Shown in pieces: positions 162 to 45,667 of a stretch of DNA of 50,147 bases. The translations under genes were made by a program, and so were the position numbers. The stretch lies in assembly GCA_943704415.1 (NCBI GenBank), contig CALSCO010002497.1, positions 1 through 50,147 on the forward strand. Reading direction: 5' to 3'. The stretch comes from Parvularia atlantis (lineage: Eukaryota > Opisthokonta > Rotosphaerida). The notes under the pieces were generated by a model. That model saw nothing but the letters and a program-made list of their open reading frames with translations, was not told where the DNA came from and did no database searches. The first letter of the stretch is position 1. Each line of letters starts with the position of its first letter.

Positions 162-1575
162 CACAGCCTGCTCGCCGGCGCCTGCTGCTTGCCGCCGGCG
201 CCGAGTGTGTCGAGCCACGACAGGAACAGGGCCGCTGCGCACGCGCTGAGCACGCGCACACGGGCGTGGGTGGCGGCGCGTGACGCGCACCGGTCTCGCG
301 CGGCTGCTCCATCACCATCAGGTGGTCCATGCCCTCGGCGACGTGCGCGCGCCCGCGGGGCATGCGGCGCGCCATGCGCGCGAGGTACGTGGCCGGCTCG
401 TCGTCCTGCGTCGTGCTGCGGCCGTGTTCAGCTCGGCGCATGCGAACGTGTGCGCGCGTGCGGCGCACTAGGTCAGCGACTTGCCGCCCTGGATGAGCAG
501 CGCCGGGCAGCCGACGGCCTCAATGCGCGTGTACAGGTCCATGCTGCCGGTGCCGCCGTCGAACGACGCCTGCGACAAGCCGTCAGCGGGGCCGAGGCCG
601 TCTTTGCGTCTGCACGCGCCTTCTCCTGCAACGGTGAGCACTTGAGCGTCACACGCATCTCGGGCTCACCGCTCGCGAGCTCCTCCGGCGTCCGGTCGCG
701 CACACCCGCCGTCTGCGATCGCCACGACGTGTGAGTCGCGCGACGGCCACATTGCAAGCGCCGCACCGCGTAGAGCTGCAGCGCGCGGTCGTCCCACGCC
801 CTGAAGACGGCCTTGCGGCGGAACGTGGCCAGCACCTCCTCACGCGACGCAAAGTTGGCGCGCCGCCTGATCGCGCCCTCGGCGAGGTAGAGGCCGGCGC
901 GCGTGCTGCGCCGAGTGAACCCACGCGCACGCACGGCGCGCGCGGCGCACGTCTTTTCGTCCCCACGGTTGTCCAGGATGATCGGCTCGACCGCGAAGAT
1001 GCCGTCAAAGGTGCCCGGGTGGCGCTGCTCGGCCAGCAGGCTTGCGTGTGCCGTCAGACGGCCGGCGGGGATGCCGCAGATGGCACGCACGCGATCGCAC
1101 CGCCACCCGAGTGCCCGACGGCGAGGTACTGGTGCGCGGGCGGCCGGGCGTGCCGCTCCATTCGCACGAACGCCGCCACGTCCTCGGCCATCTCGCGCCA
1201 GTCGGCCACGGCGGCCGGGCTGTTGTCTGCCGGCCGTCGCTCAGCCACACGCCACGGACCCACGCGCACACACGCACCGAGCAAGTGCCGGTTGAGCTGC
1301 GCGCTGTCGCCGTGGTTGCGCATGTCGACCGCGAGCACCTCGGCCGCCTCGTGGTGCCGTCGGAGCTCGTCCACGAACGGCAGGAAGACCTGCGCCGCGT
1401 CAGGCGCCACCGCGGACCTCGCCCGAGCGCATACCTCCTTGCAGAAGCCCGTCGCATGCAGCGCCACGATCGTGCGCGCAGGCGTGGCGGCCACGGGCGC
1501 GGCCGGGCGCAGCCGCAACAGCGCGAGGCGCACGCCGGAGCGCGCGGCAAGCGTGACAGTTTCGACCGCCGCCAT
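162..1575 (-). CDS. Alpha/beta hydrolase, lipase/esterase-like
   Basis: A predicted serine hydrolase of the alpha/beta fold with unknown substrate, about 330 residues in nine exons. The oxyanion-hole strand reads TIVALHATGFCKE, followed by VLAVDMRNHGDSA, the nucleophile elbow GHSGGG, IFAVEPII, and near the C-terminus a candidate catalytic histidine in GMDHLMVMEQP. All introns are about 45-62 nt. The first, after GFCKE, begins GTATGC and ends GACGCGGCGCAG. No signal peptide is evident from the chosen start MAAVETVTL; an upstream in-frame ATG at 1620 exists but would lie inside SPC1. The chosen ATG overlaps the SPC1 ATG on the other strand by two bases. Order and spacing of the motifs make the family secure; the substrate cannot be read. 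Confidence 0.85.
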
Positions 1576-1971
1576 GATTGTGGTGTGTCTGGGAAGTTGG
1601 AGCCACATCCCGCGCCTCACCAGCGTCGGGGCGCAGGACTACCAGCAGCAGCAGCTGGTCGAGACGCTGCAGTACGTCTTGCTCGCGGCGACGGCCATGG
1701 TCGCCTTCACGGCCGGCTTCGTGCAGCAGGACGTGGGCCTGCTGCTGTCGATCGCGGTCGGCGGCGTGCTTGTGACGGCCGTGGTGTGCGGTCGCAGGGC
1801 TGAGGCGCTGCCCCGCGTCGCAGCTGACCCATCACGCAGGTCACCGTGCCGCCGTGGCCGTTCCTCGCGAGCCAACCCATCACCTGGCGCACGCCGCGCC
1901 CGCCCTCGGCCCCCGCCCAGCCCGCGCCCGAAGCGGCAGGCACATCCGCAGACGAGCGCAAGCGCAAGTGA
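1574..1971 (+). CDS. SPC1: Signal peptidase complex subunit 1 (SPC12 family)
   Basis: A small non-catalytic subunit of the ER signal peptidase complex. The spliced product is 95 residues, close to the roughly 100 of the family. It starts MIV, then an intron (1583-1636), then DYQQQQLVETLQYV and two hydrophobic helices separated by the short loop of the family (AGFVQQDVG). A second intron (56 nt) precedes the hallmark TVPPWPFLASQPITW, and the tail is charged (DERKRK). Two membrane spans with both ends cytosolic are expected. The start codon lies on CATG and overlaps the hydrolase start, so the two genes have no intergenic promoter unless one of the starts is wrong. The stop is 58 bp from the convergent DnaJ gene. 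Confidence 0.85.
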
Positions 1972-2029
1972 TTGAGAGCTGTGCAAGGGGGGAAGTCGTA
2001 CATGACACACCAGGGGGAAGGCCGGCGCG

Positions 2030-3478
2030 CTAGCTCGCCGCCGTCGGCTCGCGCGCCGCGATCGCCTGCCGCGCGAGCTTGCGGAACATGCGCCCGACCG
2101 CGCGCATCGCCTCGGCGCGGCGTGTGCGCGTCGCGGCCGACACGCCGTCGTCCTGCCAGGCGCGACATGCCTGTCACACAGAGGTGCGCGACGCGCAGCC
2201 CGCGCACCATTAGCACAGAGGCGCAGACGTCGCGCAGCACCGTCTCGATCTCGAGCTTGTTGAGGCGCCAGAGCATGTCCATCACTGCGCAGCATCTGAG
2301 TGAGCAGGGTGCGGGGCAGGCGGCGCGGGTAACGCACTCTTGCGGGCTATCTGCGACTCGTACTGCTCGCGCCGCGCGTCATCGAGCGTGCCCTTCTGTG
2401 TTTGCTTCATCATGTCTTGCGACTGCACGCTGCTGAGCCAGCACGCCTGGAGACGCGAGGGACGCGGGCGCACCGTCACTTGCATGTCCGCGGCCGAGTA
2501 GATCGCGCTGAACACGCTGCGCATCGCGTGCGCCTTCTCGCGCGTGTAGTGGTACGGGTTGCTCAGCGTCAGGCCAAACACCTAGGCCCTCCGCGGTCAG
2601 CAGCAGGCCACGGCAACACTAATGCGTGCCTTGGCCTGGCTCAGCTGCTGCTGCGACTTGAGCTCGTACACGTAGCCGATTGTCTCGAGCATCTCGGGGC
2701 CGAACGACTCGTCCTGCAGCTCCAGCGCCTCCTTCTGCAGCTCTTCCTCGAAGCGCTGCTGGTCGCCTGTGCCGCCGCGGCGGTGAGCACAGAGCGCGCA
2801 CACGCACACCCAGACGCGCACCTTCGACGTAGGGCTGCAGCCGCACGATGAGCAGCGACGTCAGTTTCTTGACGCGCTTGCGCATCGTCTCGGCGCGCTG
2901 CGCGTCGCGCTCGGCCTCGCGCTGGGCGGTTGCACCGGGGATGCTCGGTGCGACTGTGCCGTCGGCCGCACTTGCCCGCGCGCCCGCATCCCCCGCGCCC
3001 GCATCGCCCGCGCCCTCCGCCATCGCGCTCTCCATCTCCGCCACGACCGCGAGCTGGCCGATGTACGCTTCGAACTGCGTGTGACGCGCGGTCGTCAGCC
3101 GTGCACGGATGCGTTCTCGCGAGTGTCCGCGCCTTGCCGCCGCCAAACAGCGCGTTAAACAGCTCCTTGGCGTTGACCTCGGGGTGGTCCTTGGCCGCGT
3201 CTTTGCCGAAGCGGTCGTACCGCTCCCGCAGCTCTGGGTTGGACAGCACCTGGCGCCGCGGGTGCGTCGGCGCACGTGCGCGATGCTCTGTCGTCACGCA
3301 CTTGGTACGCCTCCGACACCTCCTTGAACCTCGCCTCGGCGTGCGCGTCGCCCGGGTTCTTGTCCGGGTGGTACTGCAGCGCGACGCGGTAGTAGGCCTT
3401 CTTGATCTCGCTCGGCGTCGCGCGCGGGTCCACGCCGAGCGCGTCGTAGTACGAGCGGTCGACCGGAGCGGCTGACAT
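2030..3478 (-). CDS. DnaJ co-chaperone with DnaJ-X domain (Caj1/Djp1 type)
   Basis: An Hsp40 that stimulates Hsp70 ATPase activity through its J domain. The N-terminus reads [18 protein letters not shown] with the HPD tripeptide in YHPDKNPGD. It is followed by [12 protein letters not shown] and a long helical X domain containing [14 protein letters not shown] and [17 protein letters not shown], ending [16 protein letters not shown]. This arrangement, without the zinc-finger region, matches yeast Caj1/Djp1 and S. pombe relatives, which act in the cytosol and in peroxisome or mitochondrial protein handling. There are eight exons. Two introns appear to use GC donors (after GGGK and after LSQAK). 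It is divergent from Apn1, with 181 bp between the chosen start codons. Confidence 0.87.
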
Positions 3479-3659
3479 CGCTGACAGTGATCAGAAGCTA
3501 AAGATCGCGCCCCGCAAGCGCCGCCGCGCATCGTCGCCACCCGGCCCGCCGCCCCAGCGCCCGCGCCGCCCACGCCGGCGCACCGCCCAGGCCGAGCCGG
3601 AGCCATCGACGGAGCCGTCACTGCCCGCCAAGCGCCGGCGCGCGGGCAAGGCCGAGCAG
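3479..3659. promoter_or_regulatory. Divergent DnaJ-X / Apn1 upstream region with open basic stretch
   Basis: This is the gap between the DnaJ-X start and the first Apn1 ATG. Most of it (from about 3482) is an open frame continuous with Apn1 and rich in Arg/Lys/Pro (KRRRASSPP, then KRRRAGK just before the ATG), like a nuclear-localisation tail. It has no ATG of its own. Either it is untranslated leader, or Apn1 starts at an unrecognised upstream exon or a non-ATG codon. Confidence 0.4.
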
Positions 3660-4843
3660 ATGGCCGCGCGGGTGACGGCGGCGGTGGCGGCGACGCGGCC
3701 GCAGCGCCTCGCGCTCGCCCGGGCCACGCGCAAGTTTGTGGGGCTGCACGCGTCCGCGGCCGGCGGCGTGCCAATGGCGCCGGTCGATGCGGCCGCACAC
3801 GGCGCCACCGCCTTCGCGCTCTTCCTCAAGAACCAGCGCCGGTGGGACAGCCCGCCGATCGGCCCGGACGAGCCCGCGCAGTTCCGCGCGCACCTGGCGC
3901 AGTTCGGCTTCGACCCGGCGCACGTCCTGCCGCACGGATCATACCTGGTGCGCGGTGCGCGGGCGCGATGCGCGGCTCTGAGCACGGGGTGCGGCGACGC
4001 AGGTCAACCTCGGCAACGCCGACCCGGACAAGCTCGCCAAGGAGCGCGCATCTCTCTCTGGCTGACGTGCGAGACCTGACCGGCGCCGCAGAGCCGCGCG
4101 GCCTTCCTCGACGACCTCCAGCGCTGCGAGGCCCTCGGCATCCCCCTGTTCAACTTCCACCCGGGCTCGACCGTCGGCAAGCTGCCCGTGGACGCGTGCG
4201 TCGCGCAGATCGCCGACGGCCTCAACTGGGCGCACGAGCGCACGGCCGCGGTCGTAACGGTGATTGAGAACATGAGCGGGCAAAAGTCGACCATCGGCGG
4301 CGCGTTCGAGCACCTGGCCGAGATCATCCGGCGTGCGTGCGACGCGCTCACCTGCGGTCAGGCTGACCATGATGCGGCGCGCAGAGGTCAAGCAGAAGAA
4401 CCGCGTGGGCGTGTGCCTCGACACGTGCCACCTGTTTGCCGCGGGCTTCGACATCCGCACGCGCGAGCGCTTCGCCGAGGTGCGCTCGTGTTGTCGGCGG
4501 ACCGACACTTATGCACGCGCGAGCGCAGGTCATGGCCGAGTTTGACCGCGTCGTCGGCCTGCGCTACCTCCGCGGCATGCACCTGAACGACTGCAAGTCG
4601 GCCCTCGGCAGCCACCTCGACCGGCACGAGAACATCGGCCGCGGGCAGCTCGGGCTGGAGCCGTTCCGCTTCGTCATGAACAGCGCGATGTTTGACGGTA
4701 TCCCGCTCGTGCTCGGTTCGCGCCCCGCCTGCGCCTCGCCGTCCGCGCCGCTGAACCCGTCGCGCCCGCCAGAGACGCCCGCGAGCCACCCGGACGTGTA
4801 CCGCGACGAGATCGCACTGCTGTACGGCTTGGTTGCCTCATGA
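3660..4843 (+). CDS. APN1: AP endonuclease IV (Apn1)
   Basis: A zinc-dependent endonuclease IV that cleaves DNA at abasic sites and trims 3' blocks in base-excision repair. The product, about 305 residues from this start, carries the family signatures in order: [86 protein letters not shown] and a C-terminal [13 protein letters not shown]. The His, Glu and Asp zinc ligands of the family are visible (GLH, NFHPGS, ENMSG, DTCH, LND, DRH). There are six exons; the intron before SRAAFLDDL seems to use a GC donor. An in-frame basic stretch upstream, without ATG, could add a nuclear-localisation tail. It converges on the anoctamin gene, 81 bp away. Confidence 0.9.
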
Positions 4844-4924
4844 CACGCACACAAACAGAAGCCTTAGGCCTATGGGCGCTGACAAAGGAATAGGAGAAGG
4901 GACTACCAGCGGGCGCGCCGCTGT

Positions 4925-7900: not shown

Positions 7901-9218
7901 GGTTTCACGGGCACGCACCGCAGGTTGGGCTTGGCCTGCTTGCTCTTGGTCGAGCCGTCGTGCAGCGGGAAGAAGGCGACGTAGGCGCCGCGCGCCTTGA
8001 GGTGGAGGAAGCCTGCGCGCATCGGCGGCCGCGTGGTCAGTCCGGTGCCGTCGGCCGAGCGGCCGCGCGGCCGCGCGGCACGCACTCATGCGGTTGGTCA
8101 CGCGGAAGGGCAGGTTAAGTGCCTCCAGCTCGGACACGCCCAGCGTGATGTGGGTGATCAGGTGCCATGTGAGCAGCTGGCGCTGCGCCTTGCGGAAGAA
8201 GTAGCGGCGGACGACGTGCGGCTCGTCCGACCCGCGGCACTCGTTCAGCGAGTCCGCGCCGCAGAACTGCGGCGAGGTGCGTCAGCGGCGAGCACGGGTC
8301 CCGGCGCGCGTGGGGCGCGTGCCTCGGCCAGCTTGCTTGGGCGGAATGAGGCCGAGGCCTCGGGCGTGACGCGGTCCGAGAGCGAGAAGAGCGTCGCGAG
8401 GCGCTGGAAGATGCTCTCGGGCTTGGCCACGGCCTCCGGGTCCTGTAGCTTGAGCGCAAAGTTCATCTCGCGCTCCTCGGCGAGCAGCATCAGGCGCTCG
8501 AACGGCGTGAACGCGAGCACGTAGACGTCCTCGTGGTCGTAGAAGGTTTCGTGCACGAGCACGAGGCCCGACTGGACGAGCTGCGCGCCGCCGCCGCGGT
8601 GCGTGAGCGCGACGGAGCGGGCCGTGCGCGACGCCACACCTTGCGCTCAAAGGCCGCGCGCAGTGGCAGGAATTTGCCCTTCATCTTCTCGGTCTCCTGG
8701 ATCTTGAGGACGTAGTCGGGCGCGCGCGAGCGGTACACGACCTTGACGATCGCGTCGCCGTTCTTGCGCTCGCCTGGCGTGGTGCCGCACGGTCAGCGCG
8801 CGACGCGGCGGGCCGGGCGGGGCCCGAACGCACAGTACAGCCGGAAGGCCTCGTCCATGTTTTGGTCCGGGTGCTTGGTGCGGTACTCCTTGACCTCGTT
8901 GAACGTCTCGAGCTCCTCCTGCGTGCCCATGAAGACGCGGCGGCCCTCGATCGAGCCGATGAACACGTCCGGGTACTTGTCGCGCATGGTCTCGTACGAC
9001 AGCTGCGCGGCGCGCTGTGTGAATAACCAGTAGCGCGCGAGATCTGCGCCGGGCCCGTCGCGCACCTGCGCCGCATTGGGCCGGCGCTGCGCCTTGTTGT
9101 CGTCGGCCGGGCGGCTCACGCTCGTGGATGAGGGCGTCGCGGCCAGGGCCGTGTCGTCGCTCGTCATCATGCCCATCTCGACCGACGTGCCGCCGCCCTC
9201 GACGCCGGCGCTGGCCAT
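4925..9218 (-). CDS. Anoctamin/TMEM16 membrane protein, probable Ca2+-dependent lipid scramblase
   Basis: A multispan TMEM16 protein of about 1,000 residues in roughly twenty exons. The N-terminal part is cytosolic (from MASAGVEGGGTSVEM). A membrane region follows, with FFDFLNSYTTLFYIAFFKG, GGCLTELLIQLVIVFLG and LINNVIEIRTDSYRL. In known TMEM16 structures the Ca2+-binding acidic residues lie in these helices, and the glutamate of GGCLTEL and the N..E...D pattern of NNVIEIRTD are present. Unlike yeast Ist2, it has long Cys-containing loops between helices (around CIPVNGTDLYC, CSDSCWGYTSEALC and ATCQFVDP), as in animal anoctamins. The last exon encodes a short acidic tail ending LDKLKNV. One intron (after FRPSKLAE) appears to be GC-AG. 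It may scramble lipid or tether ER to plasma membrane; the sequence does not decide which. Confidence 0.88.
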
Positions 9219-9450
9219 ATGCTTGGCTGCTTCAGGCGAACTCCCGGAGATAATTGAAGCGGTCACATGACCGCTCGTGAACCGTGACGCCGTCTTTTGT
9301 CCCGTCTTTGTCCATGCCGCGTTGCGCGCTGCCCGTGCCGCGCTCGTCGCTGTGTGCCGGGGCGCTGCGCTCGTGCGCGCGGCGGTCGGCGCGGCATGCG
9401 GCCCACCTCGCCCGCTGACGCCGCTGTTGTTCGCGCGCAGGCGCATCAGG
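9219..9450. promoter_or_regulatory. Divergent promoter between anoctamin and flavin monooxygenase, with E-box palindrome
   Basis: This 232-bp gap is one of the few roomy divergent regions in the window. It holds an inverted repeat at 9259-9274, GCGGTCACATGACCGC, whose 7-bp arms flank a CA and whose centre is a CACATG E-box-like core. A GATAATTG stretch lies just beside it, and a further GTGACG follows. Such palindromes are typical dimeric transcription-factor sites, but the factor cannot be named from sequence alone. Confidence 0.45.
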
Positions 9451-11621: not shown

Positions 11622-11670
11622 CCGTGGCCTGACGGCAGCGGCAGCAGGGGAGCGAAATACACACACGTGT

Positions 11671-13063: not shown

Positions 13064-13110
13064 GTCTGATGTACGTCGGACGCACGCATTCTCGCGCAGA
13101 CATTCTCAGG

Positions 13111-15089
13111 ATGGCGGTGCGCCGCCGTTGCCGTGAGGGCCGCACGCCGTTGCTCACGCCCGTCTCGCGCGCGCGCGCGTGCGCAGTCGCTCGGCGTGCG
13201 CCACAACCTGCGCGAGGCCGGCCGCCGGCACAACCGCAAGGGCGTGCCGCTCAACGTGATGATCGTCGGCCGCTCGGGTGCGGGGCGCTCCTCGCGGCGG
13301 GCGAGATCCGCTGCTCACCCGGCGGTCCTGCGCGCGCGCGTCCGGCCTTTCCCCCAGGGCTCGGCAAGTCGACGCTGCTGCGGACGCTCGTCGGCAAGGA
13401 CTTCTTCCCGGAGGCGAAGCACGCGGCCGTGGCCGACCCGATCGCGGCCAAGACGATCGAGGTCGTGCCCGTAACGCACGGTGCGCACGCTATTTCGGGC
13501 CCCGCGCGGCCCCGCCGACCCCGCCCGCGCGCGCTCACGCGGCAGAGCTGGACGACCTCTGCGGCAACCGCCTGCTGCTCACGCTCGTCGACACGCCCGG
13601 CTTTGGCGACAGCATCGACAACACCGACAGGCACGGTCTCCCTTTTTCCACCCATCGCGCACCAACGCGCACGCCGCGCACGCCGCCGCGCGCAGCCACA
13701 AGCAGATTGAGAAGTACATCCTCGAGCAGTACGAGCGCTTCCTGGCTGAGGAGTCGCGCATCGAGCGCAACCCCAAGTTCCTCGACACGCGCGTGCACGC
13801 CTTGCTCTACATGATCACGCCCTCGGGCCACTCGTGCGGCGCCGCCCCACGAGCCGCGCGGGACGCCCGGCCTGACTGCGCGCGACCCCGGCAGGCTCAA
13901 GGAGCTCGACGTCGCGTTCATGAAGGCGCTCGCGCAGCGCGTCAACATCATCCCGGTGATCGCCAAGGCCGACACGTTCGCCGAGAAGGAGCTGGCCAAT
14001 TTCAAGCGCCGGTGCGGCCCTCGTTGTGACAGCGCGCACCGTTGACGCCGCGCCCCGCAGCGTGATGGAGGACATCGCGCGCTACGACATCCCCGTCTAC
14101 ACCTTCCCGGACCAGTCGGACGAGGAGGACGAGGTCGCGTCGGACAACAAGCTCCTGCGGGTGCGTCGCGCGGGTGTGCTGGCGCGGGTGGCTGACCGTG
14201 CGCCGCCAGAACATGCTGCCTTTCGCGGTCATCGGCAGCGACGCCGTGTATGACGTCGGGGGCCACCAGGTGCACGGCCGCAAGTACCCGTGGGGCGTCG
14301 TGCAGGGTGCGTCGCGCTGCGGCGGGCTTGCGTCGGTGACACGTGCACACGGTGGCCGCCAGTCGAGAACGTGGAGCACTGCGACTTTTTGCAGCTGCAG
14401 AACATGCTGTTCAAGTGCGCACGCGCAGAACGGCTCGTTGCCGCGCGGGCCGGCTCACGCATGCACAGCTCGCACCTGCACGTCCTGCGCGAGGTCACGC
14501 ACGATGTGCACTACGAGAACTACCGCCGCGACAACCTGTCGCAGACGGGCGTGCTCGACAGGTGCGCGGGCACGCTCGGCGTCGGCAGCTGTTGCGCTCA
14601 AGTCGGACGCAGCGCGCAGATCGAGGCGCAGCTGCAGCAGCGCGAGCGCGCGATGACGCAGGCTAAGATGGCCAAGCAGCAGGAGCAGCAGCAGGCAGCG
14701 GCCGCGATGCAGGCGCAAGCGATGGAGGTGCGTGCGCGTGATGAGATCGCACTGCGAGCGTCTCACGCGCGCGGGCACAGACGGCAGCCGCGGCGCAGGG
14801 TGACGACGGCGAGGTCAAGAAGAAGAAGACGGTTGTGCGTGCCCGCGGCGCCGCCACCTGCCGCGCCGCTTACGCGCAGCGCGCTCTCGCAGAAGAAAGC
14901 GGCCGAGGGCGAGGACGGCGCAAAACCCAAGAAGAAGAAGGACAAGGTCTGCGCACACACGCGCACGGACTGCCTCTCACGCGCACACGCGCGCACGCGC
15001 AGGACCTGTTGGCCGCGACGTCGGCCGAGTCGGTGCCGGTGGCCGTGGCCGCGGACGAGGCGATGAACGACGAGTCGGCGATCGTGTGA
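13111..15089 (+). CDS. Septin A (filament-forming GTPase with C-terminal coiled coil)
   Basis: A septin of about 400 residues. P-loop GRSGLGKST (split by an intron after GRSG), switch [14 protein letters not shown]4 AKAD, and the septin-unique element region [17 protein letters not shown] are all present. The C-terminal half is helical and Gln/Lys-rich ([20 protein letters not shown]), as in coiled-coil septins that bundle filaments at the bud neck or septum, and a Lys-rich tail (KPKKKKDK) follows. The start is uncertain: ATG 13111 gives MA, then an intron whose phase fits [15 protein letters not shown] 13062 is also open but its splice phase does not fit. The intron after DSIDNTDS has a GC donor. 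The coiled coil suggests the Cdc3/Cdc11/Cdc12 side of the family rather than Cdc10. Confidence 0.9.
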
Positions 15090-22814: not shown

Positions 22815-22836
22815 TATATTCAACCACCGAGTGCGC
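22815..22836. promoter_or_regulatory. 22-bp divergent start-to-start gap (methyltransferase / acyltransferase)
   Basis: Only 22 bases, beginning TATATTCAACCACC, separate the two chosen ATGs. The AT-rich TATATT is unusual for this GC-rich window. Promoter elements of each gene must lie inside the other's coding region, unless the acyltransferase really starts at its internal ATG about 96 bp downstream. Confidence 0.4.
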
Positions 22837-24035
22837 ATGCTCGCCGCGCCCGCCTCGGCAGCAGCACCAGCAGCAGCAGCGGCGGCAGCGGCGACGACGG
22901 CGACGGCGGCGGGCACGCGACGGCGCGGCGGGATGCTGCGGCTGCTGTGGGCGGTGCCGGCGACGGTGAGCGCGCGCCTGAAACTGCCGCCGCAACGACA
23001 GACGGAGTCACCGTGCCGACGCCGTGCCGCAGGTCGCGCTGTGGGTGCTGTACACGGCGCTGCGCTTCGGCCCGCGGCGCCTCGTCTACTGGTGGAAGCA
23101 GCTCGCGCTGCACGGTGCGCGCGCGCGGCGCCTCCCCTCCTCGCGCCGCCGCTGACGGCAGCACCAGCGCTCATCTTTGTCGCGTCGGCGTACGGCTTCG
23201 CGCTGCTCGTGCTCAACCCGTTCCGCGACCGCGCCAATCTCGTCTACCACGCGGCCAAGCTCTACAGCCAGCTGGCGACGTGCGCCGCCCGCGCGCGAAC
23301 GGACCCCGGCTGACACGCGCCGGCTGACGCGGCACCGCAGGCGCGTGACGGGCGTGACAGTGCGCGTCGAGGGCGGCGAGCACCTGCTGTGCCAGCCGTG
23401 CGTGTACATGGCCAACCACCAGTCGACGCTGGACGTGCTGGTCTGCTCGACGGTCGTGCCGCCGCGCACGGTCGTCATCGCCAAGAAGTCGCTATTCTGG
23501 ATCCCGCTTTTTGGCTGGTTCCTCGCCTTCAGCCGCAACATCTCGGTCGAGCGCGGCGACCACGCGAGCGCGGTGCAGAGCATGAACCGGGCCGCGCGGC
23601 AGCTGCGTGCCGACAAGGTGCGTGGGCGCATGCGCGAGGTCTCCGCAGATCGCGTCCCGACACGTCCGCCCAGGTCGGCGTGTGGATCTTCCCCGAGGGC
23701 ACGCGCTCGCGCACCGACGGCGAGCTGCTCCCGTTCAAGAAGGGCGGGTTCCACCTGGCGATGGACGCGCAGGTGCCGATCGTGCCCGTGATCATCGCCA
23801 ACCAGAAGGCCCTGTACGACTCGAAGACGCACGTGTTCCGGGCGGGCGAGCTCCTCGTGAAGGGTGCGCGCGCTCGTTCCTGCTATGCCCACGGCGAGCC
23901 GCTCACCGCGCGCGTGCGCACGCAGTCCTCCCGCCCGTGCCGACAGAGGGCCTCCGCACCAAGGAGGACCTCAACAAGCTGCTGGACAGCGTGCAGGCGA
24001 CGATGCAGAGCGAGGTGCAGAAGCTCATCCAGTGA
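22837..24035 (+). CDS. SLC1: 1-acyl-sn-glycerol-3-phosphate acyltransferase (Slc1 type)
   Basis: A membrane acyltransferase that converts lysophosphatidate to phosphatidate in glycerolipid synthesis, probably in the ER. About 290 residues in six exons. An Ala-rich N-terminus leads into two hydrophobic segments (VALWVLYTALRFG; IFVASAYGFALLVLN). The PlsC motifs are clear: ANHQSTLDVL (NHx4D), IAKKSLFWIPLFGWF, WIFPEGTRSR and the late block AQVPIVPVI. The C-terminus is helical (LNKLLDSVQATMQSEVQ). The first ATG gives a long Ala/Thr tail; an internal ATG at MLRLLWAV is an alternative start. It converges on septin B, 93 bp away. Confidence 0.9.
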
Positions 24036-24128: not shown

Positions 24129-25748
24129 TCACACTGCCGTCGCGGGCGCGCGGCCGTGCGCCTCCTTCTTCGTCTTGCGCTTCTTGATCGCCGCGTCGGC
24201 CACGCGCGACGGCGCGCCGCCCTGGTCGTCGGCGCCCGGCCCGTCCTCGTCCATGATGATCGAGCTGCGTCGCGAGCCGCGTGAGCACGGCCCACTGTGC
24301 CTGGCACCGGGAGGCGCTCACCTGTCGCGGTTCCCGCGCTTGATCAGGTCAGCCTTGCGGAACGCCTCGTAGTGCACGTCCTGCGTCAGGTCCTTCAGGT
24401 CGTCGTAGTGTGTGCTGCGCGGCGACGGCGGCGCCGTCAGCTAAAGCGCGCGGGAGCGGGCGGCGCCGGACGCACACAAACAGTGCGTTCTTGAGGCGCA
24501 AAAAGTCGCAGTGCTCCTCGTTGTCGACTGCGCCCACCGGGGCGTCAGCCGCCTGTTTCCACCGGCAAGGGCTCGCGCACGCACCCTCAGCGATGCCCCA
24601 CGGGTACTGCCGGCCGCGCACGGCCTCGCCGCGCACGTTGTACTCCTTTTCGCCGCCGATGATGGCAAACGGGATGAGCGACTGCGCGTGCCGTTTTTTG
24701 TGTGTCAGGTGCGCGTCGACCGGCTGCGTGCGCGCGCCACACGCGCGTGCCTCGAGGTAGTCGTTCTCGGCCGCGATCTGGTCGTCCAGGTCCGAGTTGT
24801 ACGGGAAGTCGAAGATCTCGATCGCGTGGTCCTCGATGTCCTGCTTGATCTGCACGCGCGCGCCTCAGTCGTGCGCTCTTCGCAGACACAAGGCGTCCGT
24901 CCGCACCCGCTCCTTGAACGTGGCGAGCTCGACCGGGCTGAGCGTGTCCGACTTGGCGATGACCGGGATCACGTTCGACCGTGTCCCCAGGCGGCGCATG
25001 AACGACACGTCCAGCTGCGTGAGGCTGAATCGCGTCCTCAGCACGTTGCGCAGTGCGCTGTTTGCGCCGCACCCGTGGCCGTTCGGCGCAATGAAGTACA
25101 GCACGACGTGCACGCGCGGATCGAGGAACTTGGCGTTGCGCTGGATGCGCGTCTCCTCCTTGAGGAACGTCTGGAACTGCTCCTCGACGTACGCGGCGAC
25201 GATCTCGAAGCTGGCGCGGCCGCGCGGTCAACGCGGCGTGCGTCCCAGGCGCGTCGCGCGCACCTCTTCGAGTTGTCGACGAGGTCGCCAAAGCCCGGCG
25301 TGTCGATGATGCTGAAGTTGATCTTTTTCCGGTCGATGTCGATCTCTGCGTCAGGCGCGGGCGGCAGGGCGAGGGCGTCAGCGAGGCTTGGGGCGGACCA
25401 CACGTGCGCACCCGTCTTGAAGACGCGGATCTCGGTCGTCTTGGCCAACGTCAGGTCCTGCGGCTTGTCCTCGTCGCGCGGCACAAACTCGCTGTCCTGC
25501 AGCAGCGTGCGGATGAACGTGGTCTTGCCGAGCCCGGACGCGCCTGCGCCGTGTGCGCGCCGTGCGCCGTGTTTGTCGACGGCGAGGGGCGGTGGCGGCG
25601 CGGCGCGCACCCGCGACCATGATGTTGTACGTCGTCGCCTTCTTGACGCGCTTGACGGGCGTGAGCGCGGCCTGGTGCGCGCGCGGCCGGCGGGCGTGCG
25701 CCGCGTGAGGCGGAGGCGGAGGCGGAGGCGCGGCAGGCGGCGCACCAT
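24129..25748 (-). CDS. Septin B (Cdc11-like septin GTPase)
   Basis: A second septin, about 340 residues, ten or eleven exons. P-loop GASGLGKTT, switch II DTPGFGDLVDNSK, then SFEIVAAYVEEQ, RVHVVLYFIAPNGHG, G4 AKSD and septin-unique-element block RQYPWGIAEVDNEEHCDF. SFEI after the DNS, and the GHG-LTQLDVSFMRRL stretch, most resemble fungal Cdc11; this is by eye only. The C-terminus is short and basic (IKKRKTKKEA) without an obvious long coiled coil. Exon 1 is only the ATG, then a 74-nt intron (25672-25745) restores the frame into AALTPVKRVKK. The intron before SLIPFAIIGG has a GC donor (GCACGC). It is divergent from the ankyrin gene with a 28-bp gap. Confidence 0.9.
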
Positions 25749-25776
25749 CGTGACTGACCCGAAAATAGCATTGGTG

Positions 25777-29353: not shown

Positions 29354-29385
29354 TTGTCCTTGAAAGTGCACGTCGCTTTGTACGG

Positions 29386-33812: not shown

Positions 33813-33841
33813 CGGAAGCGGAGCTGGGCGCGGCCCTTGCG

Positions 33842-35506
33842 TCACAATAGGTATATGCCGACACGGTCCGACAGCGCCGCGCCGATGTAGAGGCCGCCGG
33901 CCCACTCGACGACGGAGCTGGCCGCGCCGAGGACGGTGCCGTTGTGCGCGATGAGCTCGTGCGCTGCCCGCGCGCGCGTGTCAGTGCCTGCGCGTGTGCA
34001 CGCGGGGAGGCGCGAGGACCGCACTCTTGAGCGACCGCAGCGAGATCTGCCGCACCGAGAACGACGTCGGGCACGAGCGCCGCCCCGTCCACAGGCACAC
34101 GAGCCACGGCACGACCTCGGTTGTCGTCGTGAACACGGCACGGCTCCTGCGGTTGCGCGCTCAGCCACCGTGTGCGCACATGGGCCAACACGCACTTGAG
34201 CGGCACAACCGACAGGCCCGACGGCGCCCCGCCCACGTCGACGCACGTCTTGTTGACCTCGCCGGCGTCGCCGTCCGTCACAGCCAGCGCCCCGCCGAGG
34301 CGGCATATCCTTCCCAGGCCTGGGCGATGCGTCAGAACGACGCGCGTCGGCAGTCTCAAACGCGCGCGCGCGCACCCTGCTCGCTCACAAAGATCGCGTC
34401 GCCCAGCGCGAGCACGCCCGTCGGCAGCACCGTCTCGGACTTTGGCACGACGTGCCACTCGCCCGCATGCCACCGACGCACGTCGCCCGTCGGCTGGCCG
34501 AGCAGCCACCCCATTGCGAGCGCGACAGCGTACTGCGGGGTGCGCACGCACGTGGGCCGAGTGCTCACAGGCGGGACGCAATCGCGCACCCTCAACCCGC
34601 CGAGGCCGAACGCGAGCGGCGCGGAGGTGGTGACGAGGAAGGCGTTGTTGGCAAGGGCGTGGATGCGGTTGGCGACCATGTCTGCACACGCGCGCGTTGG
34701 CGGGGCGCGCAGGCGGCACAGCGCGAACGCACTCGGCGGCAGCGGCGTGCAGCCGACCCACGCAACCGTCGTGCCCTTGGGCCCCGTGGCGATGTCGAAC
34801 CACTCGACGGCCTTGCGCTCCTCCGACGACGCCAGCACAAAGAGCCGCACCGTCCCGCCCGTGGCCGGCGCGGCCGAGAGCGCGTGCGGGTGGAAGGTCG
34901 CCTCGCGTGGCGGCTCGGAGCACGTCTCGGGCGTGAGCACGCGTCCGACGTCGCTCGGGCGCCCGATCGGCCAGAGGTGCGTGGGCGGGCGGAGGAAGAC
35001 GCGGCGCGTGCCGTGCTCGCCCGTGGCAATGTTGGGGTCGGGCAGCTGCAGCGCAAACAGGCCGACCTGGCGCCGCGCGATCAGGGCGCGAACGAGCCCG
35101 GCCGGCGCGTCGCACGGGCACGCGGTCGTCGGCGGGGCTCGTCGGCAGACGCGGGCGGAAGCGGATGGTCACGAGCACGTGCAGCGACGGCACGAGCGCC
35201 AGGTCCTCCGGGTTCCACAGGGCGAACCCGCAGACGGACCCCCTGGCGGGGAGGCGGGCGCCGCCGTCACGCACGGCCGGTCGCGCATGGCCGCATCGCC
35301 GCGCACATCACGTTGAGCGGCGGGACGGGGTTGCACGGCGGCAGGCCCGAGCGGTCGAAGCGCACGGCCAGCAGGTACGCCAGCAGCGCCGTGAGCAGCG
35401 CCGGCACGGCCATCGCGGCCGCCTGGCGCCCGAGCGCCGGCAGCTTGTCGACGAGCGTTGGCCGGGGCGGGGCGGGCGCCGTGCCGGGTGCGGAGGCGGG
35501 CCGCAT
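33842..35506 (-). CDS. Paraoxonase/arylesterase-like (SMP-30 superfamily) beta-propeller, membrane-anchored
   Basis: About 400 residues. The N-terminus carries a single hydrophobic anchor (MAVPALLTALLAYLLAV after a Pro-rich stretch), giving a lumenal or extracellular propeller. Family-like blocks in order: FALWNPEDLALVPSLHVLV, FHPHALSAAP with the HPH expected near the active site, RLFVLASSEERKAVEWFDI, NRIHALANNAFLVTT, VLPTGVLALGDAIFVSEQ and the final VVEWAGGLYIGAALSDRVG. Paraoxonase-type enzymes hydrolyse lactones and aryl esters using Ca2+; substrate and activity here are unknown. There are about eight exons, with junctions consistent in phase. The start lies just 14 bp from the dihydroorotase start on the other strand; a later ATG (MAVPALL) is an alternative start. 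Confidence 0.75.
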
Positions 35507-35520
35507 TCTCTTGCGTCAGG
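35507..35520. promoter_or_regulatory. 14-bp divergent start-to-start gap (paraoxonase-like / dihydroorotase)
   Basis: Just TCTCTTGCGTCAGG separates the two chosen start codons. TGCGTCA resembles an AP-1/Gcn4-type half site. Neither gene has room for a private core promoter here. Confidence 0.4.
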
Positions 35521-36789: not shown

Positions 36790-36863
36790 CCGTGCGCAGG
36801 CCAAGAGTGCTGTGCAATTCGTGTGCCGGGGGCCCCCGCAGCAAAGAGAGACACGCGGCGAAG

Positions 36864-37386
36864 CTACGAGTGATGCGAAGAGTAACTGATGTTGCGCAGG
36901 ACCGGCTGCAGGTCGCCGCGGTTGACGAGCACGCTGCGCGGCGCGCGACGTCAGCGCCCGCCCACAGCGCGACCGCGATGGTGTGCGCACCGCATCAGGT
37001 CTTCGTGGTAGTTGGGCGTGACGACGGCGGGGAGCGCCCGCGCCGCGTTGGCCGTCCACTGCAGCGTCTCCTGTGTTGCCGCGTCAGCACATGGCGGGGC
37101 CAGCCGCGGCACCGTACGTACCTCCGGGCAGATCTTGTGCATGACCGTGAGCATGCCGCTCACCCGGTCGACGCACGTCGCCGTGAAGTGGTTGGCCACA
37201 CCGCTCAGCAGCGCCGACACGAGCGACTGCCCTTGCACTGCGTTCCGCGCCGTGTGAGCCCGCGCCTATGCGCCGTGCCGTCGACGACAGGCGCGCACCG
37301 GCCAGGAGCGGCATGAACGCCGCCGAGAACGCTTTGTGCTCGTTGTCGTACACAACGTCTGCGGCGCGTGTCAGCCGGCAGGCAAC

Positions 37387-37417
<31 letters not shown>

Positions 37418-40400: not shown

Positions 40401-41402
40401 CTCCAGCGGGATGACGCGCGACCGCAGCCAGCTATTCACGCACAGGAAAATCTTCTCAAAGATGCGCACGTCGCCCGCAGCGCTCTGCTCCGGGTGCGTG
40501 CGCGCGGTCGTGGGCGGGGCGCGGTCCAACGCGCACGCGCACGCACGTTGAGGTACGACATCATCAGGTTCATGAACGCGGGCGCGCAGTTGCGCATGTA
40601 GCCCATGAGCATCCTCCTCCGCTCGCGCTCGAGCACTGTGCGCCGGTTCGTGACCTCCTCGGGCAGGACCTGTTGTAGCGCGGCGCATGAGGCGCGCGTC
40701 AGCATGAACAGACGGCGCGTCGCGTCAATGCGGTGCGCGCCTTGAGAAAGTCGATGAGCAGCAGCGCGCTCGGGCCGTCGCTGCCGGCAAACATGCGCAC
40801 GACGTCGGCGATGGGGTCCTGCGCCGTCGCGGCACGCGCGTATCAGTCGCGCTCACACGAGGCAGTCCGGCGCGCACCTCCCAGGTGCCCATGTGCACGA
40901 TCAGGTTGGCCAGCGCGAGGCACAGCTGCGTCCTGATCTCGGTCGGCCCCTCGCGGAACTGCTGCAGCAGCTGGAGGATGGACGCCTGTGGGCCCGGTGC
41001 GCGCGCTCAGCAACGGGGCAACGGCGCGGCCAAGGGCGCGCGCGTCTACCTCGAGCGAGCTGTGCGCGGCCGCGGGCAGCTGGCGGAAGTCGCGCATGAT
41101 CTTGGTGTGCAGCGTGTGCGCGGCAAAGTACTGCGCGTGCGTGCCCAGGTCGGGCCGGCGGATCATCCGGTCGGCCACGGTCCACGCGGCCTCCTGCGTA
41201 ATAGCGACGCGCGCGCGCGCGCGTTTCGGGAGCGTGAGCGTGGCGCCGTCTGCGCCCACGCGCCCGCACGCACCCGCTGCTGGAACTGCTCGAGCCACGC
41301 GTTGGCCTGCGTCTTGCGCGCCATGTCGTCGCCAAAGTAGAGCACCTGCAGCGCCTCGACGCAGGTCGACAGCTCGTCGCCTGAGCCGCCGCCGTCCGCC
41401 AT
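36864..41402 (-). CDS. MTR10: Karyopherin beta, Mtr10 / transportin-SR (TNPO3) type
   Basis: A nuclear import receptor of about 950 residues, a HEAT-repeat superhelix for SR-rich proteins and implicated in tRNA traffic. The N-terminus reads ALQVLYFGDDMARKTQANAW then LEQFQQR, followed by EAAWTVADRMI, QYFAAHTLHTKIMRDF and FREGPTEIRTQLCLALANLI, the classic TNPO3/Mtr10 opening. Internal helices include LDIAQMIFNFCYK and ASQLLFENML; the tail is VLVNRGDLQPVLRNISYSSHHS. More than fifteen short introns. One (37359-37482) is twice normal length because of a 29-base G run on the coding strand. Exon borders in the middle were not all resolved. It was first weighed as Crm1/exportin-1 but the N-terminus fits Mtr10 better. 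Confidence 0.85.
37388..37416. repeat. 29-base C/G homopolymer inside a Mtr10 intron
   Basis: An uninterrupted run of 29 C on the + strand (29 G in the Mtr10 pre-mRNA) lies in the intron 37359-37482. The 3' end of that intron is otherwise normal (CCGGCTGACACGCGCCGCAG). Such a run can form G-quadruplexes and is prone to slippage and sequencing error, so its exact length is doubtful. Confidence 0.9.
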
Positions 41403-41437
41403 GTCGCTGGTTAATCTGCCATTGTCACACTTCCATC
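41403..41437. promoter_or_regulatory. 35-bp divergent gap (Mtr10 / FYR protein)
   Basis: A short AT-richer spacer containing GGTTAATCTGCC and TTGTCACACTTCC between the start codons at 41402 and 41438. No TATA box is seen. Confidence 0.35.
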
Positions 41438-43291
41438 ATGGACACCGACGACTTGCACGACTCGCCTGACCGCACGCGCACGCTCAAGCGCAAGCTCGCG
41501 CGGGCGCAGCAGGTGGTCGCGCGCGTACACGGCGACGCACGTGCCGTGCGCTGATCCCGCTGCTGCTGCTGCAGGCGTGCGACGCGGCCCGCGCCGAGCT
41601 CGCGAGTGTCCAGGGGCAGCTCGCGCGCGCCAACGTGAGGCTCGCGCGCGTGCTGCGCGAGCGAGCGTGCGTTGGCCGGTGTCGTCGTTGTCGACGCGCG
41701 GCTGGGTTAACGCACGCGCACGTGTCCACAGGCTGCTGCTCGAACGGCTGACGCAGCGCGACGGCGCCGAGGGCTACGCGACCGACTCGGCCGCCGGCAC
41801 GGACGCGTCCGACAGCGAGCTGAGCGAGGACGAGCTTGTCTCGCGCTCGGCCACGTCGCTGCACCACGCCGCGCCGCAGACCCCCGCGCACCAGCCGCAG
41901 CCCATGCTCCGTCTGCACGGCACGCTCTTGCACGCCCTGCGGGCGCTCACGGCCTGACGCGCCGAATCGGCAGCCTCGGCGGGCAACAACGGCTACAGCA
42001 ACAACCCGAGCACGCCCGACGACTTTGCCAGCAACGTCGACAGCCCCGCGCCGAGCGCCGCGCGCCCGTCCGGGGGTGCGCCTCGCCGCCTGCCCTCGCT
42101 GGAACAACGCGCCCTGACACCGCATCGCCTCCAAAGGCAAGAAGGTCGAGCGCAAGTCGGCCGCGGTCACCAAGCGCCCGGCCAAGCGCATCTCGTACAT
42201 CCGCCACGTCGACGGCAAACCCGTCCTGCCCATCACCATCGGCGTGCTCACGCTGCTCGAGCTCGGGCGGGTGCATGCCCTGCCGCCGTGCCACCGCGCT
42301 CGTCCGTCCTGACCCACGCACAATGCAGGTGATCTGGGACAGCCCCAACTTCCACAGCCAGCGGTACATCTGGCCCGTGGGCTACCACGCCGTGCGCAAA
42401 TACCAGTCGACCAAGGCGCGCGCGCCCGCGCGGTCATCATACGCTGAGCCACCCGCTGAGCGCGGCGCGCGCGCAGAACGCCAACAGCATTACCAACTAC
42501 GACTGCAAAATCATCGAGCAGAAGGGGCACCCGGCCGTGCGTCTGCGCCGGCTGCTCGCGGCGTGGCGGCTGATGCGCCCGCGTGGCGCAGTTTGTGATC
42601 ACGCCGCAGGACGACCCCGACAACCCGATCACGGCGCCGACGGCCACCGGTGGGCTTGGCGGGAGCGAGCGCGCCCCGTGGCTGACTGCGGCTGTGCGCA
42701 GGCGCGTGGACCGCCGTGCTCAAGTCGGCCAACAAGATCCGCAACCGCGAGGGCAGCAACAGGTGCGGCTGCGGGGGCGAGCGCGCGGGCGCGCCCGGTG
42801 GACGTTACAGAGTCAGCGCCCCCGCCGCGCGCAGCGCGTCCGGCCCCGACTACTTTGGCTTCTCGCACCCGATGATTGCCAAGCTGATCCAGGACCTGCC
42901 GGGCGCGGACAAGTGCGCCAGCTACGTCTGGCAGGTGCGCGCGCCCGTCGACCAGGCGCGGTGCTCACCCGCTCGGGGTCGACAGGACTACATTATGCCG
43001 GACGCGCCGCCACCCGCGGCCAAGCGCGCCAGGCGGAGCGGTGGCGGCGGCGGCGGTGGCGCGGGCGCGGCCGGCGGCAGCAAGGGCATCAAAGTCGAGC
43101 TCGGGGCCGAGCGCGCGATCAAGAGCGGCGACCTGGACTCATCGTCGATCCTGTCGGCGGGCGACGCGGGGCAGGACGAGGGTGCGGCGCGCATAGCTCC
43201 CGCGTATGGCGTGCGTCGAACTCACGCACGCACAGAGTGGGGCGACGACGACATGGACGACATGGACGACGACCTGAGCATTGCGGAGTAG
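41438..43291 (+). CDS. FYRN/FYRC-domain nuclear protein
   Basis: About 400 residues. The N-terminal region is coiled coil (LKRKLARAQQ, AELASVQGQLARANVRLARV, ALLLERLTQRDG). An acidic Ser/Asp-rich linker (DASDSELSEDE) and a basic stretch (KKVERKSAAVTKRPAKR) follow. The FY-rich N-terminal domain reads LPITIGVLTLLELG and NFHSQRYIWPVGYHAVRKY; the C-terminal half is CKIIEQKG, ITPQDDPDNPITAP and YFGFSHPMIAKLIQDLPGA. The tail has AKRARR and an Asp-rich end (DDDMDDMDDDLS). FYR pairs occur in chromatin proteins (TBRG1, MLL/Trx); coiled coil plus FYR is common in uncharacterised fungal proteins. At least two introns have GC donors (41920-41973 and the one after YQSTK). Confidence 0.82.
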
Positions 43292-43332
43292 CGTCTGGCG
43301 GTGTGACAGAGACACGAGCGGCGCATCACGCC

Positions 43333-44356
43333 TCAAACGGCGAGCCCGACGCGGTGCCGCACAAACTGCCGCGCCGTGGCCTCGCGGACCATGAACGTGG
43401 CGATGTCGCCAGTGTCGGGCGCGTCCCCGGCCGGCAGGTGGTCGATCTCGACCTGTGGAGCGCGCGCGTGTTGGCCGTCGTTGTCGCATCGCGGCACCAG
43501 GGGCACGCGCACCTTGCACGGCCCCGTGACGTCGCCGTCCGGCGGCTGCGCCGCGCAGACCATGGTCCAGTCGAGATCACTGCTGCGCAGCACCTGGTAG
43601 ACGCGCAGGTGGCCCTTGGCCTGGCACGACGGCGTCAGCGCGCGACAAGCTGACCTGGCAGCGGCCGCACACCACGTCCTGCAGGTGGTGCGGGAAGCCG
43701 GGCTCGTCCATCATCATCTGCGACGGCGAGCCGCGCACGAGGAGCACGGCGGTGCTCGCGGCGACGACGAGGCGCCGGATCTGCGCCGCGGCGTCAGCAT
43801 CGCGCACGTGCAACAGGACGGCGTGCGCACGTTGAGCTTGCCCATCGCGGCTACGGCGTTGGCGCAGCCGATCGCGTGCAGGTCGTCGCGGACGGTCGGG
43901 CGCGGCGCGTGGTCGGCGTGCTGCGGCATCTCGTGCGCGCGGTGCGGGCTGCGCGGCGCGTCGGTTGCTACGGTGTGCGGCGGCGCCTGCGCGACGCACG
44001 TCTCGGGCGCCGACTGCAGCGGCGCGCCGGTGGCCATGAAGACGACGTCGGCGCCCTTGAGTGCATGCAGCACGCTCTGCACAGCACGCGCGCGCACACT
44101 GAGCACGAGGCGGTCGGGGGCAGCGGCGCGGGCGCTCACCTCGATGTCGAGCAGGTCGCCCTGGACGACGTGCAGCGTGGGCGACTCGAGCGCGAGCCAG
44201 TGCGGGCGATCCGGGACAAGCGCCGTCACGCTGTAGCCATCCTGGTGCAGCTGGCGCACCTGCGCGCGGGCGTGTCACGCGGCACCCGTGCGTGCCCGAC
44301 GTCGGCACCAGCGCATGAGCCATCGGCCCGTCGCCGCACAAGACGCCCGCGTGCAT
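43333..44356 (-). CDS. NmrA/atypical-SDR-like NAD(P)-binding protein
   Basis: About 245 residues resembling NAD(P)H-binding flavin-reductase/NmrA-like proteins. Rossmann elements: VRQLHQDGYSVTALVPD (helix A, strand 2), VVQGDLLD (the D after strand 3), GADVVFMATGAP (strand 4) and RRLVVAAST (strand 5). They are followed by LRSSDLDWTMVCAAQ and a C-terminal DIATFMVREATARQFVRHRV typical of the family. The first glycine-rich loop is odd: GVLCGDGPMA where relatives have GATGxxG. That may mean weak or altered cofactor binding, or a wrong first exon. Seven exons. The stop is 41 bp from the convergent FYR gene, and the start 40 bp from the divergent DHHC gene. Confidence 0.72.
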
Positions 44357-44396
44357 CCCGTTGTTGGTCGAATATCTCCAGTGACTACCGTGACGT
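44357..44396. promoter_or_regulatory. 40-bp divergent gap (NmrA-like / DHHC)
   Basis: This gap contains TTGGTCGAATATCTCC and two GTGAC elements (AGTGACTACCGTGACGT), the second forming a TGACGT CRE-like half site right before the DHHC ATG. Confidence 0.35.
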
Positions 44397-45667
44397 ATGC
44401 CGGGCGCATCCCGCTCGCGCGCGCACTGCAGCGGGCGGCTCGTGCACGGCCCGTCGCTGGGCGGCGTGGCGGGATCGGCGGCGCTGATCGTCGTGCCGAC
44501 GGTGCTGTTCTTCGTGTTCACGTGCGCGCGCCTCGCGGGCGCGCCGATGCGCGCTGACGGACGATGACGGCCGGGAGCAGCGCGCCGTTCTACCGCGGGC
44601 CGCTCGCCGTCCTGCCCGCGCTCACGGGCGTGCTCTGCCTCGTGTCGCTCGCGTCGCTCTTCACGACGTCGCTGACCGACCCGGGCATCCTGCCGCGCGC
44701 GCCCGAGGTGCGCCCGCGATGCGGTCGGCCGCGCAGCCGACAAAGCCGCCCGATACAGCCGCCCGACGAAGCACTTGCGCCGTACAAGAAGGTCGTGCAC
44801 GTCAAGGGGCGCGACATCGAGAGCAAGTACTGCCACACGTGCCACATCTACAAGCCGCCGCGCACGACGCACTGCAGCGTATGCAACAACTGCGTCGGTG
44901 CGCGCGCACGCGGCGACCGATGCCGTGTGCGTGACCTCACACCCGCGTGAGCACGCAGAGCGCTTCGACCACCGTGCGCGCGAGCATGCCTGCTGCGTGC
45001 GGCAGTGCGGCTGACCCACGCCCGCGCTCGCGTGCCAGACTGCCCGTGGACGTCAAACTGCATCGGCCGGCGCAACTACCGCTTCTTCCTCACGTTTGTC
45101 TTCGTCACGGTCGCGTACGCCCTCGCCATCGTAGCGCTGTGCATCGGGCACGTCGTCGCGAGCGCCACGGACGGCACGGCCGTGACGGCGCTGCGTGCGG
45201 CCCCTGTGAGGCGCGTTGTGCCCTGATCGGTCAGCATTGGCCGCGCTGACACGCCGCCGGCCCGCTGCAGCTTCGCGCTCATCTTCTACGCGGTGGCGGC
45301 GGCGGGCTCGGTCGGCTTCCTGGCCGTGTTTCACTGCCAGCTGCTCGCTGGGAGCGTCACGACCAACGAGAAGGCACGCCCTCGTGCGCGCGACTTGGCG
45401 CGCCTGACGCTGCTCCGAGCTCAGCTGACGCTCAAGTACATGACCGGCAACCCGTTCAAGCGGCCGCTCGGCGCGGAGCTGACGGCGATCTGCTCCGGGC
45501 CCTTGCCATCGAGGTGCACCGCGCCGCACGCGCCGCACGCGCCGCCTGACGATGTGTGCGCACCGTGCAGCTTTGTGCGACAGCTGGCGCGCGGCGACGA
45601 AGGGCCAAAGGAGCTCGCGGACTTTGCGGCCGAGGTGCAAGGAGGCGCCTCGGGCTTTGTTGTGTAA
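44397..45667 (+). CDS. DHHC palmitoyltransferase, Erf2-like
   Basis: A membrane protein S-acyltransferase that palmitoylates cysteines, about 280 residues in eight exons. TM1 lies around LIVVPTVLFFVFT and TM2 in LPALTGVLCLVSLASLF, followed by TSLTDPGILPRAPE, the DPG motif. The Cys-rich domain is [32 protein letters not shown]; the catalytic DHHC is split by an intron after DH. TM3 and TM4 follow (FFLTFVFVTVAYALAIVAL; FALIFYAVAAAGSVGFLAV), then the TTNE (TTxE) motif and KYMTGNPF. Erf2 palmitoylates Ras in yeast. The N-terminus is shorter than in Erf2 and may lack an exon. The intron after TTNEK (45374-45424) has a GC donor. Confidence 0.88.

Follow-up and report, generated by a model that had tools for sequence, protein, structure and literature searches.

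How much DNA do two RNA polymerase II (Pol II) promoters need between them when the genes that they serve point away from each other? The question is raised by contig CALSCO010002497.1 of the rotosphaerid Parvularia atlantis (assembly GCA_943704415.1; 16,251,876 bases in 616 contigs), which was analyzed as a single window, the entire contig of 50,147 bases. Ten divergent gene pairs were re-derived in this window from intron-containing gene models, and the distances between the two ATG codons of a pair are -2 (an overlap), 14, 22, 28, 32, 35, 40, 47, 181, and 232 bp. The initial annotation had reported that eight of ten divergent gaps are below 50 bp (an overlap, 47, 22, 28, 32, 14, 35, and 40 bp), and the same pairs and gaps were recovered from these models after the curation of two start codons, whereas the gene finder by itself gives six of ten. 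We consider it rather probable that these tight gaps form the shared center of two interlocked, head-to-head core promoters, and that the corresponding mRNAs carry very short 5′ leaders of about 20–25 nt or less. Gaps of 14–47 bp and a 2-bp overlap limit the DNA that two Pol II promoters would need outside coding sequence.

Divergent gene pairs and their start codons

Genes were called on both strands, without RNA evidence, by a purpose-written generalised hidden Markov gene finder trained on the window and on 250 kb of the remaining genome (300 kb in total). The sample contains 127 predicted genes with 1181 introns, i.e., about nine introns per gene, and the window contains 25 predicted genes. 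Introns are short (mostly 45–75 nt) and of the GT-AG type, with a GTGCG donor and an enrichment of CTGAC/CTCAC about 22 nt before the acceptor. A Pfam match exists for 19 of the 20 proteins that the ten divergent pairs encode. The pairs are listed below as minus-strand ATG/plus-strand ATG; the two curated plus starts are 1574 (instead of 1697 from the finder) and 22837 (instead of 22933).

1575/1574: 1573..1576, CATG, start codons overlapping by 2 bp; alpha/beta hydrolase (minus) and SPCS1, signal peptidase complex subunit 1 (plus)
3478/3660: gap 3479..3659, 181 bp; DnaJ/DnaJ-X protein (minus) and AP endonuclease-like protein (plus); wide pair
9218/9451: gap 9219..9450, 232 bp; anoctamin (minus) and flavin monooxygenase (plus); wide pair
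13063/13111: gap 13064..13110, 47 bp; PTPA, a PP2A activator (minus), and septin (plus)
22814/22837: gap 22815..22836, 22 bp; SpoU/MRM3-like RNA methyltransferase (minus) and acyltransferase (plus); plus start uncertain
25748/25777: gap 25749..25776, 28 bp; septin (minus) and ankyrin-repeat protein with a signal-peptide-like N-terminus (plus)
29353/29386: gap 29354..29385, 32 bp; EF-hand protein (minus) and class-V aminotransferase (plus); both N-termini signal-peptide-like
35506/35521: gap 35507..35520, 14 bp; membrane-type protein (minus) and dihydroorotase (plus); minus start uncertain
41402/41438: gap 41403..41437, 35 bp; transportin-3-like importin (minus) and FYRN/FYRC protein (plus)
44356/44397: gap 44357..44396, 40 bp; NAD-binding NmrA-like protein (minus) and DHHC palmitoyltransferase (plus)

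Both starts are supported in six of the eight tight window pairs by homology, by the lack of a further Met, or by signal peptides judged by eye, the last of which carry two of the six (25748/25777 and 29353/29386). At 1575/1574, Abhydrolase_6 begins at residue 36 of the minus protein and SPC12 at residue 22 of the plus protein (E=1.5e-20), and neither has a second Met ahead of its domain; the start at 1574 is preferred to 1697 because the Met chosen by the finder (residue 42) falls inside the SPC12 match. A 41-nt intron in the N-terminus of SPCS1 was ruled out, as it breaks the frame. Upstream of this pair, the plus frame is open and contains an ATG at -252, and the minus frame has an ATG at -33 and a stop at -66. 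Residue 11 of PTPA aligns to residue 11 of PDB chain 2hv6_A, residue 7 of dihydroorotase to residue 9 of 6l0a_A, and residue 10 of the transportin-3-like protein to residue 7 of transportin-3 (4c0p_A). The septin domain begins at residue 20 in the protein from 13111, whose next Met is residue 27 and thus within the domain, and at residue 14 in the protein from 25748, whose next Met is residue 19 and whose partner has ankyrin repeats. NAD-binding matches begin at residues 5–10 at 44356; DHHC begins at residue 104 at 44397, with no Met between residue 1 and the domain; and the FYRN/FYRC protein has no further Met before residue 114. For the aminotransferase, whose domain begins at residue 50, Pfam alone would allow Met35 as the start.

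The tight gaps would become ordinary if the true start codons lay downstream, as the initial annotation had itself considered, and some observations point in that direction. A downstream ATG would restore 118 bp at 22837, where the finder favors 22933 and the acyltransferase domain begins at residue 117; the MRM3-like substrate-binding domain of the partner begins at residue 14. Similarly, Met32 of the minus protein at 35506, which has no Pfam match, would restore 107 bp. When every in-frame ATG up to 150 nt downstream is allowed, gaps below 50 bp persist in none of the ten window pairs and in 4 of 28 others, so that all ten window gaps reach 50 bp. In addition, the coding signal in codons 2–9 is weak in the 16 genes of tight window pairs (-0.155 nats per codon, versus +0.069 outside the window). 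On the other hand, there is little space for later starts in PTPA, dihydroorotase, transportin-3, both septins, SPCS1, and the NAD-binding protein, whose N-termini are conserved, and downstream starts are argued against in six of the eight pairs, in the two signal-peptide pairs by eye only. In-frame stops located 6, 12, 36, and 45 nt upstream of four starts (6 nt at the plus ATG 44397, 12 nt at the minus ATG 35506, and 36 nt at 41402) also speak against misplaced starts, since they preclude an earlier start within the same exon for these four. Restored gaps of more than 100 bp are possible in two tight pairs, and misannotation as a general explanation is very improbable. Among the five tight pairs outside the window, both starts are supported, partly by eye, in two (L011, gap 32 bp; L013, gap 21 bp).

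As for the wide pairs, an upstream in-frame ATG of the minus frame at 9218 would shrink that gap to 4 bp. The frame of the AP endonuclease-like gene (3660) can be followed upstream for 213 nt with neither a stop nor an ATG and appears by eye basic and proline-rich, and this protein may begin at an upstream exon or at a non-AUG codon. The two septin genes (13111-15089 and 24129-25748) lie about 9 kb apart, each in one tight divergent pair.

Several introns follow almost directly behind the ATG: the first exons 25746-25748 (before a GTGCG intron), 13111-13116, and 48423-48426 in the window, and 6996-6998 in L011. First exons with at most 15 coding nt make up 16 of 110, whereas exons this small account for 6.0% among last exons and 2.7% among internal ones, and a GTGCG donor stands within 4 nt after the ATG at 7 of 111 starts versus 7 of 1226 internal Met codons. 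This excess is possibly in part an artifact of the gene finder; if leaders are short, first exons of this type would be tiny. The dense introns and the apparent tolerance of small exons would fit a hidden 5′ structure, that is, a non-coding exon further upstream or a leader added by trans-splicing, in which case the ATG-to-ATG distance says little about the promoter. However, an upstream exon would need to sit within the gene of the neighbor, and we give this explanation only a slight chance.

Upstream ATGs and the length of the leaders

If ribosomes scan, out-of-frame ATGs are expected to be scarce along the whole of a leader. Such ATGs were counted upstream of 110 starts (as placed by the finder, apart from the two that were curated); five permuted triplets served as the control and positions -200 to -51 as the baseline. 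Only 4 were found at -20 to -1, where 15.2 are expected (p=0.007), and 7 versus 20.1 at -25 to -1 (p=0.008). There is no deficit further out (7 versus 7.4 expected in each of -40 to -31 and -50 to -41), and it persists near the start when the window genes are removed (3 versus 11.3 at -20 to -1, p=0.024). The restriction of the scarcity to the immediate vicinity of the starts suggests leaders of about 20–25 nt or less, so that the very short leaders proposed in the initial annotation gain indirect support from the genes of the whole sample. The context of the starts is weakly Kozak-like: position -3 is A at 35 of the 111 starts, compared with 239 of the 1226 internal Met codons, and position +4 is G at 50 and 427 of these, respectively.

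An arrangement with long, overlapping leaders is also permitted by the geometry: transcription would start well within the coding sequence of the neighbor, the two mRNAs would overlap by at least 50 nt, and upstream ATGs would be skipped or tolerated. Overlapping transcripts, often initiating in upstream genes, have been described for the extracellular stage of Encephalitozoon cuniculi (PMC3629993), and nothing contradicts such leaders in the three of eight tight window pairs and four of five tight outside pairs that are free of out-of-frame ATGs in the 60 nt before both genes. However, the deficit over the 110 starts ends at about -25, and several tight-pair genes carry out-of-frame ATGs at -20 to -53, among them -20 (41402), -23 (25748), -26 (13063), -37 (41438), -41 (22837), and -49 (13111). 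Those at -20 to -49 speak for short leaders, because a long scanned leader would contain them. Long leaders are thus an unlikely explanation.

Leaders as short as those suggested by the upstream-ATG pattern would have a direct consequence for the position of the promoters: with gaps of 14–47 bp, the upstream part of a promoter can hardly avoid the coding sequence of the neighbor. At 1573-1576, a capped mRNA with a leader of even 1 nt must start inside the coding sequence of the neighbor, and if both ATGs are used, the two mRNAs overlap at their 5′ ends. The earlier proposal that promoters lie in the first exon of the neighbor thus holds for this pair by geometry, provided that both ATGs are right. 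By contrast, its premise that a core promoter of about 100 bp would have to fit between the ATGs was too strong, because a core promoter is described as typically reaching about 35 nt from the start site, either upstream or downstream (PMC2803860), and its downstream half may lie in coding sequence. The other possibility raised there, a single nucleosome-free site that fires both ways, draws no support from the sequence.

Proposed interlocked core promoters and genome compaction

A plausible model, built on the sequence, is that Pol II starts inside the gap, or a few bases past it, in either direction, and that the upstream promoter half of each gene lies in the gap and in the first codons of its neighbor. 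The gaps themselves are enriched in AT: the 12 tight gaps of positive length (353 bp) are 44.2% AT, compared with 31.9% in divergent gaps of 60–700 bp (p=3e-6) and 30.2% in all 300 kb. It is also tempting to speculate that many core promoters are embedded in the first codons of the oppositely oriented neighbor, so that one stretch of DNA would serve both as coding sequence and as upstream promoter, with mutually exclusive pre-initiation complexes, in an intron-dense, GC-rich, and non-reduced genome; in this strong form the idea is rather doubtful. The gene pairs, most of the start codons, the AT enrichment of tight gaps over longer divergent ones, and the upstream-ATG pattern are observations, whereas where transcription would start, how far the promoters would overlap, and which of the two polymerase complexes could occupy the site at once are inferred.

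Some observations weigh against interlocked promoters. The start codons are predictions, most divergent gaps elsewhere are longer (median 129 bp outside the window), and for the tight pairs alone the upstream-ATG test is powerless (1 seen, 3.0 expected). The deficit extends to -30 in wider divergent pairs (50 genes; 0 versus 4.1 at -30 to -21, p=0.045), where leaders may be somewhat longer. The AT content of the tight gaps is not clearly above that of convergent gaps (44.2 versus 38.9%, p=0.055), and the AT enrichment may mark non-coding DNA instead of promoters. Promoter elements within the first codons would be expected to lower GC3 (the GC content of third codon positions) there, and GC3 in codons 2–9 is 83.2% in tight-pair genes versus 88.2% in genes outside tight pairs, which is not a significant difference (p=0.06); in the latter genes, the value is 94% in codons 26–100. 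Finally, no symmetric element was found in the 13 gaps, whose mean half-palindrome is 2.54 versus 2.27 after shuffling (52 of 300 shuffles as high), and a palindromic gap center acting as a symmetric bidirectional element was rejected on this ground.

The genome encodes a TATA-binding protein (TBP). No TATA box was detected at a fixed place, no 20-nt bin having TATA at more than 2 of the 110 starts. Within 80 nt upstream of these starts, GTGACA occurs at 11 starts (2.1 in shuffles) and CACTTT at 8 (1.1 in shuffles), many words having been tested; GTGAC is most frequent at -40 to -21.

The cause of the tight arrangement would be compaction and not co-regulation, because convergent and some tandem gaps are short as well and the partners look functionally unrelated by name: no obvious shared function connects the hydrolase with SPCS1, or the methyltransferase with the acyltransferase, as judged from their names. 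Another account is plain compaction, in which gaps of every kind are short, the contig sits in the tail of their distribution, and no dedicated two-way element exists; it is compatible with short leaders. In the 250 kb outside the window, only 5 of 28 divergent gaps fall short of 50 bp (12 of 28 when every upstream in-frame ATG is used), and the count is 1 of 8 in 60 kb of another contig (C5). The difference between the window and the rest in gaps below 50 bp, a post hoc comparison since the window was chosen for its tight gaps, gives Fisher p values of 0.0009 (curated gaps), 0.012 (minimal gaps), and 0.56 (maximal gaps). Eight tight gaps in ten are not the norm of the genome, and the window lies in the tail. 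At 94.9%, its genic share does not stand out from that of the other stretches (67–98.6%), as plain compaction would have it.

Divergent gaps do not differ clearly from tandem ones, with medians of 105.5 versus 152 bp in the sample (p=0.14) and 129 versus 175 bp without the window (p=0.51). Within the window, divergent gaps (median 33.5 bp) tend, if anything, to be shorter than convergent stop-to-stop gaps (33–273 bp, median 58.5, p=0.049); outside it, they are not shorter (medians 129 versus 87 bp, p=0.09). In the pooled data, gaps below 50 bp comprise 13 of 38 divergent, 5 of 28 tandem, and 11 of 41 convergent gaps, and the five tandem ones imply that a promoter in this genome can be shorter than 50 bp.

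The order of the strands speaks against plain compaction. Of the adjacent pairs, only 4 of 24 are tandem within the window (p=0.0008) and 28 of 107 in the 300 kb, i.e., 79 of 107 neighbors lie on opposite strands (p=4e-7). The tandem count varies with the settings of the finder, from 20 of 99 up to 55 of 137 when genes are split (82 of 137 opposite, p=0.013), which weakens the pattern, and the numbers of divergent (38–39) and convergent (41–43) pairs are nearly constant. In addition, compaction by itself leaves the working of the promoters unexplained. We give plain compaction somewhat less than an even chance, and retain interlocked core promoters with very short leaders as the preferred reading.

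Some further features of the contig and genome were recorded. A run of 29 C at 37388-37416 lies just beyond position 37358, where an exon of the transportin-3-like gene is predicted to end; it is probably intronic and is possibly an assembly or sequencing artifact. The window yielded no tRNA or Rfam matches, and a search for 5S rRNA gave no match. One dynein heavy-chain match was obtained; light-harvesting and Chitin_synth_2 families were not found in an exon-by-exon search, which leaves their absence unproven.

Comparison with known systems

In the literature searched, the extreme cases of this kind are microsporidia and Giardia. For E. cuniculi, leaders of less than 7 nt by RACE, promoter signals adjoining the coding sequence, and head-to-head S16/L13 ribosomal protein genes only 35 bp apart have been reported (PMC2803860). 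The tiny head-to-head gaps and promoters at the start codon are similar to the arrangement suggested here, where the leader is bounded only to about 20–25 nt. On the contrary, the present genome is intron-rich, measures 16 Mb (16.25 Mb), and has about 70% GC. Microsporidian-type signals were rejected, as neither is enriched upstream of the 110 starts: the CCC/GGG motif is present in 43 at -20 to -1, 40 at -40 to -21, 58 at -100 to -81, and 45 at -200 to -181, and AAATTT in none in six 20-nt bins between -200 and -1, ribosomal protein genes not being singled out.

The genome of Giardia intestinalis, unlike the present one, is intron-poor. Its leaders are given as 1–14 nt, and its short AT-rich promoters have been suggested to be bidirectional (PMC3610916). 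Very short leaders would be a common feature, and a short AT-rich stretch by the start codon may be another, since the tight gaps here are clearly richer in AT than longer divergent gaps but not clearly richer than convergent ones; bidirectional firing has been suggested there and may or may not occur here. In Ectocarpus, neighboring genes tend to lie on opposite strands and close divergent pairs share a nucleosome-depleted region, while transcript abundance is reported not to correlate between partners (PMC7784034). The strand alternation is shared with our sample. However, the median divergent intergenic distance in Ectocarpus is 409 bp, versus an ATG-to-ATG median of 105.5 bp here, and 14–47 bp in seven window pairs. 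At the other end, leaders in Toxoplasma are near 800 nt, which shows that short leaders are not a necessary property of a fairly compact genome (PMC7854901).

The mammalian TISU element, whose consensus we take to be SAAS before the start codon and GCGGC after it, offers another comparison. It serves short leaders of about 12 nt and is also a promoter element (PMC2518114). In our sample, 15 of 111 starts but 46 of 1226 internal Met codons carry the ATGGCG half, an enrichment (p=7e-5) that is also seen for GCGGC after the start, which is rare (3 of 111 versus 3 of 1226, p=0.009); Ala after Met can explain both. TISU was rejected because its upstream half is absent: SAAS before the start is not enriched (4 of 111 versus 65 of 1226, p=0.65).

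The tight pairs of P. atlantis are thus of the same kind as known compact-genome cases, but occur in an intron-rich and GC-rich genome without the microsporidian motifs. If the preferred reading is true, tiny leaders and interlocked promoters would be independent of intron loss, and these pairs would provide a natural test of how ribosomes choose a start codon with almost no leader.

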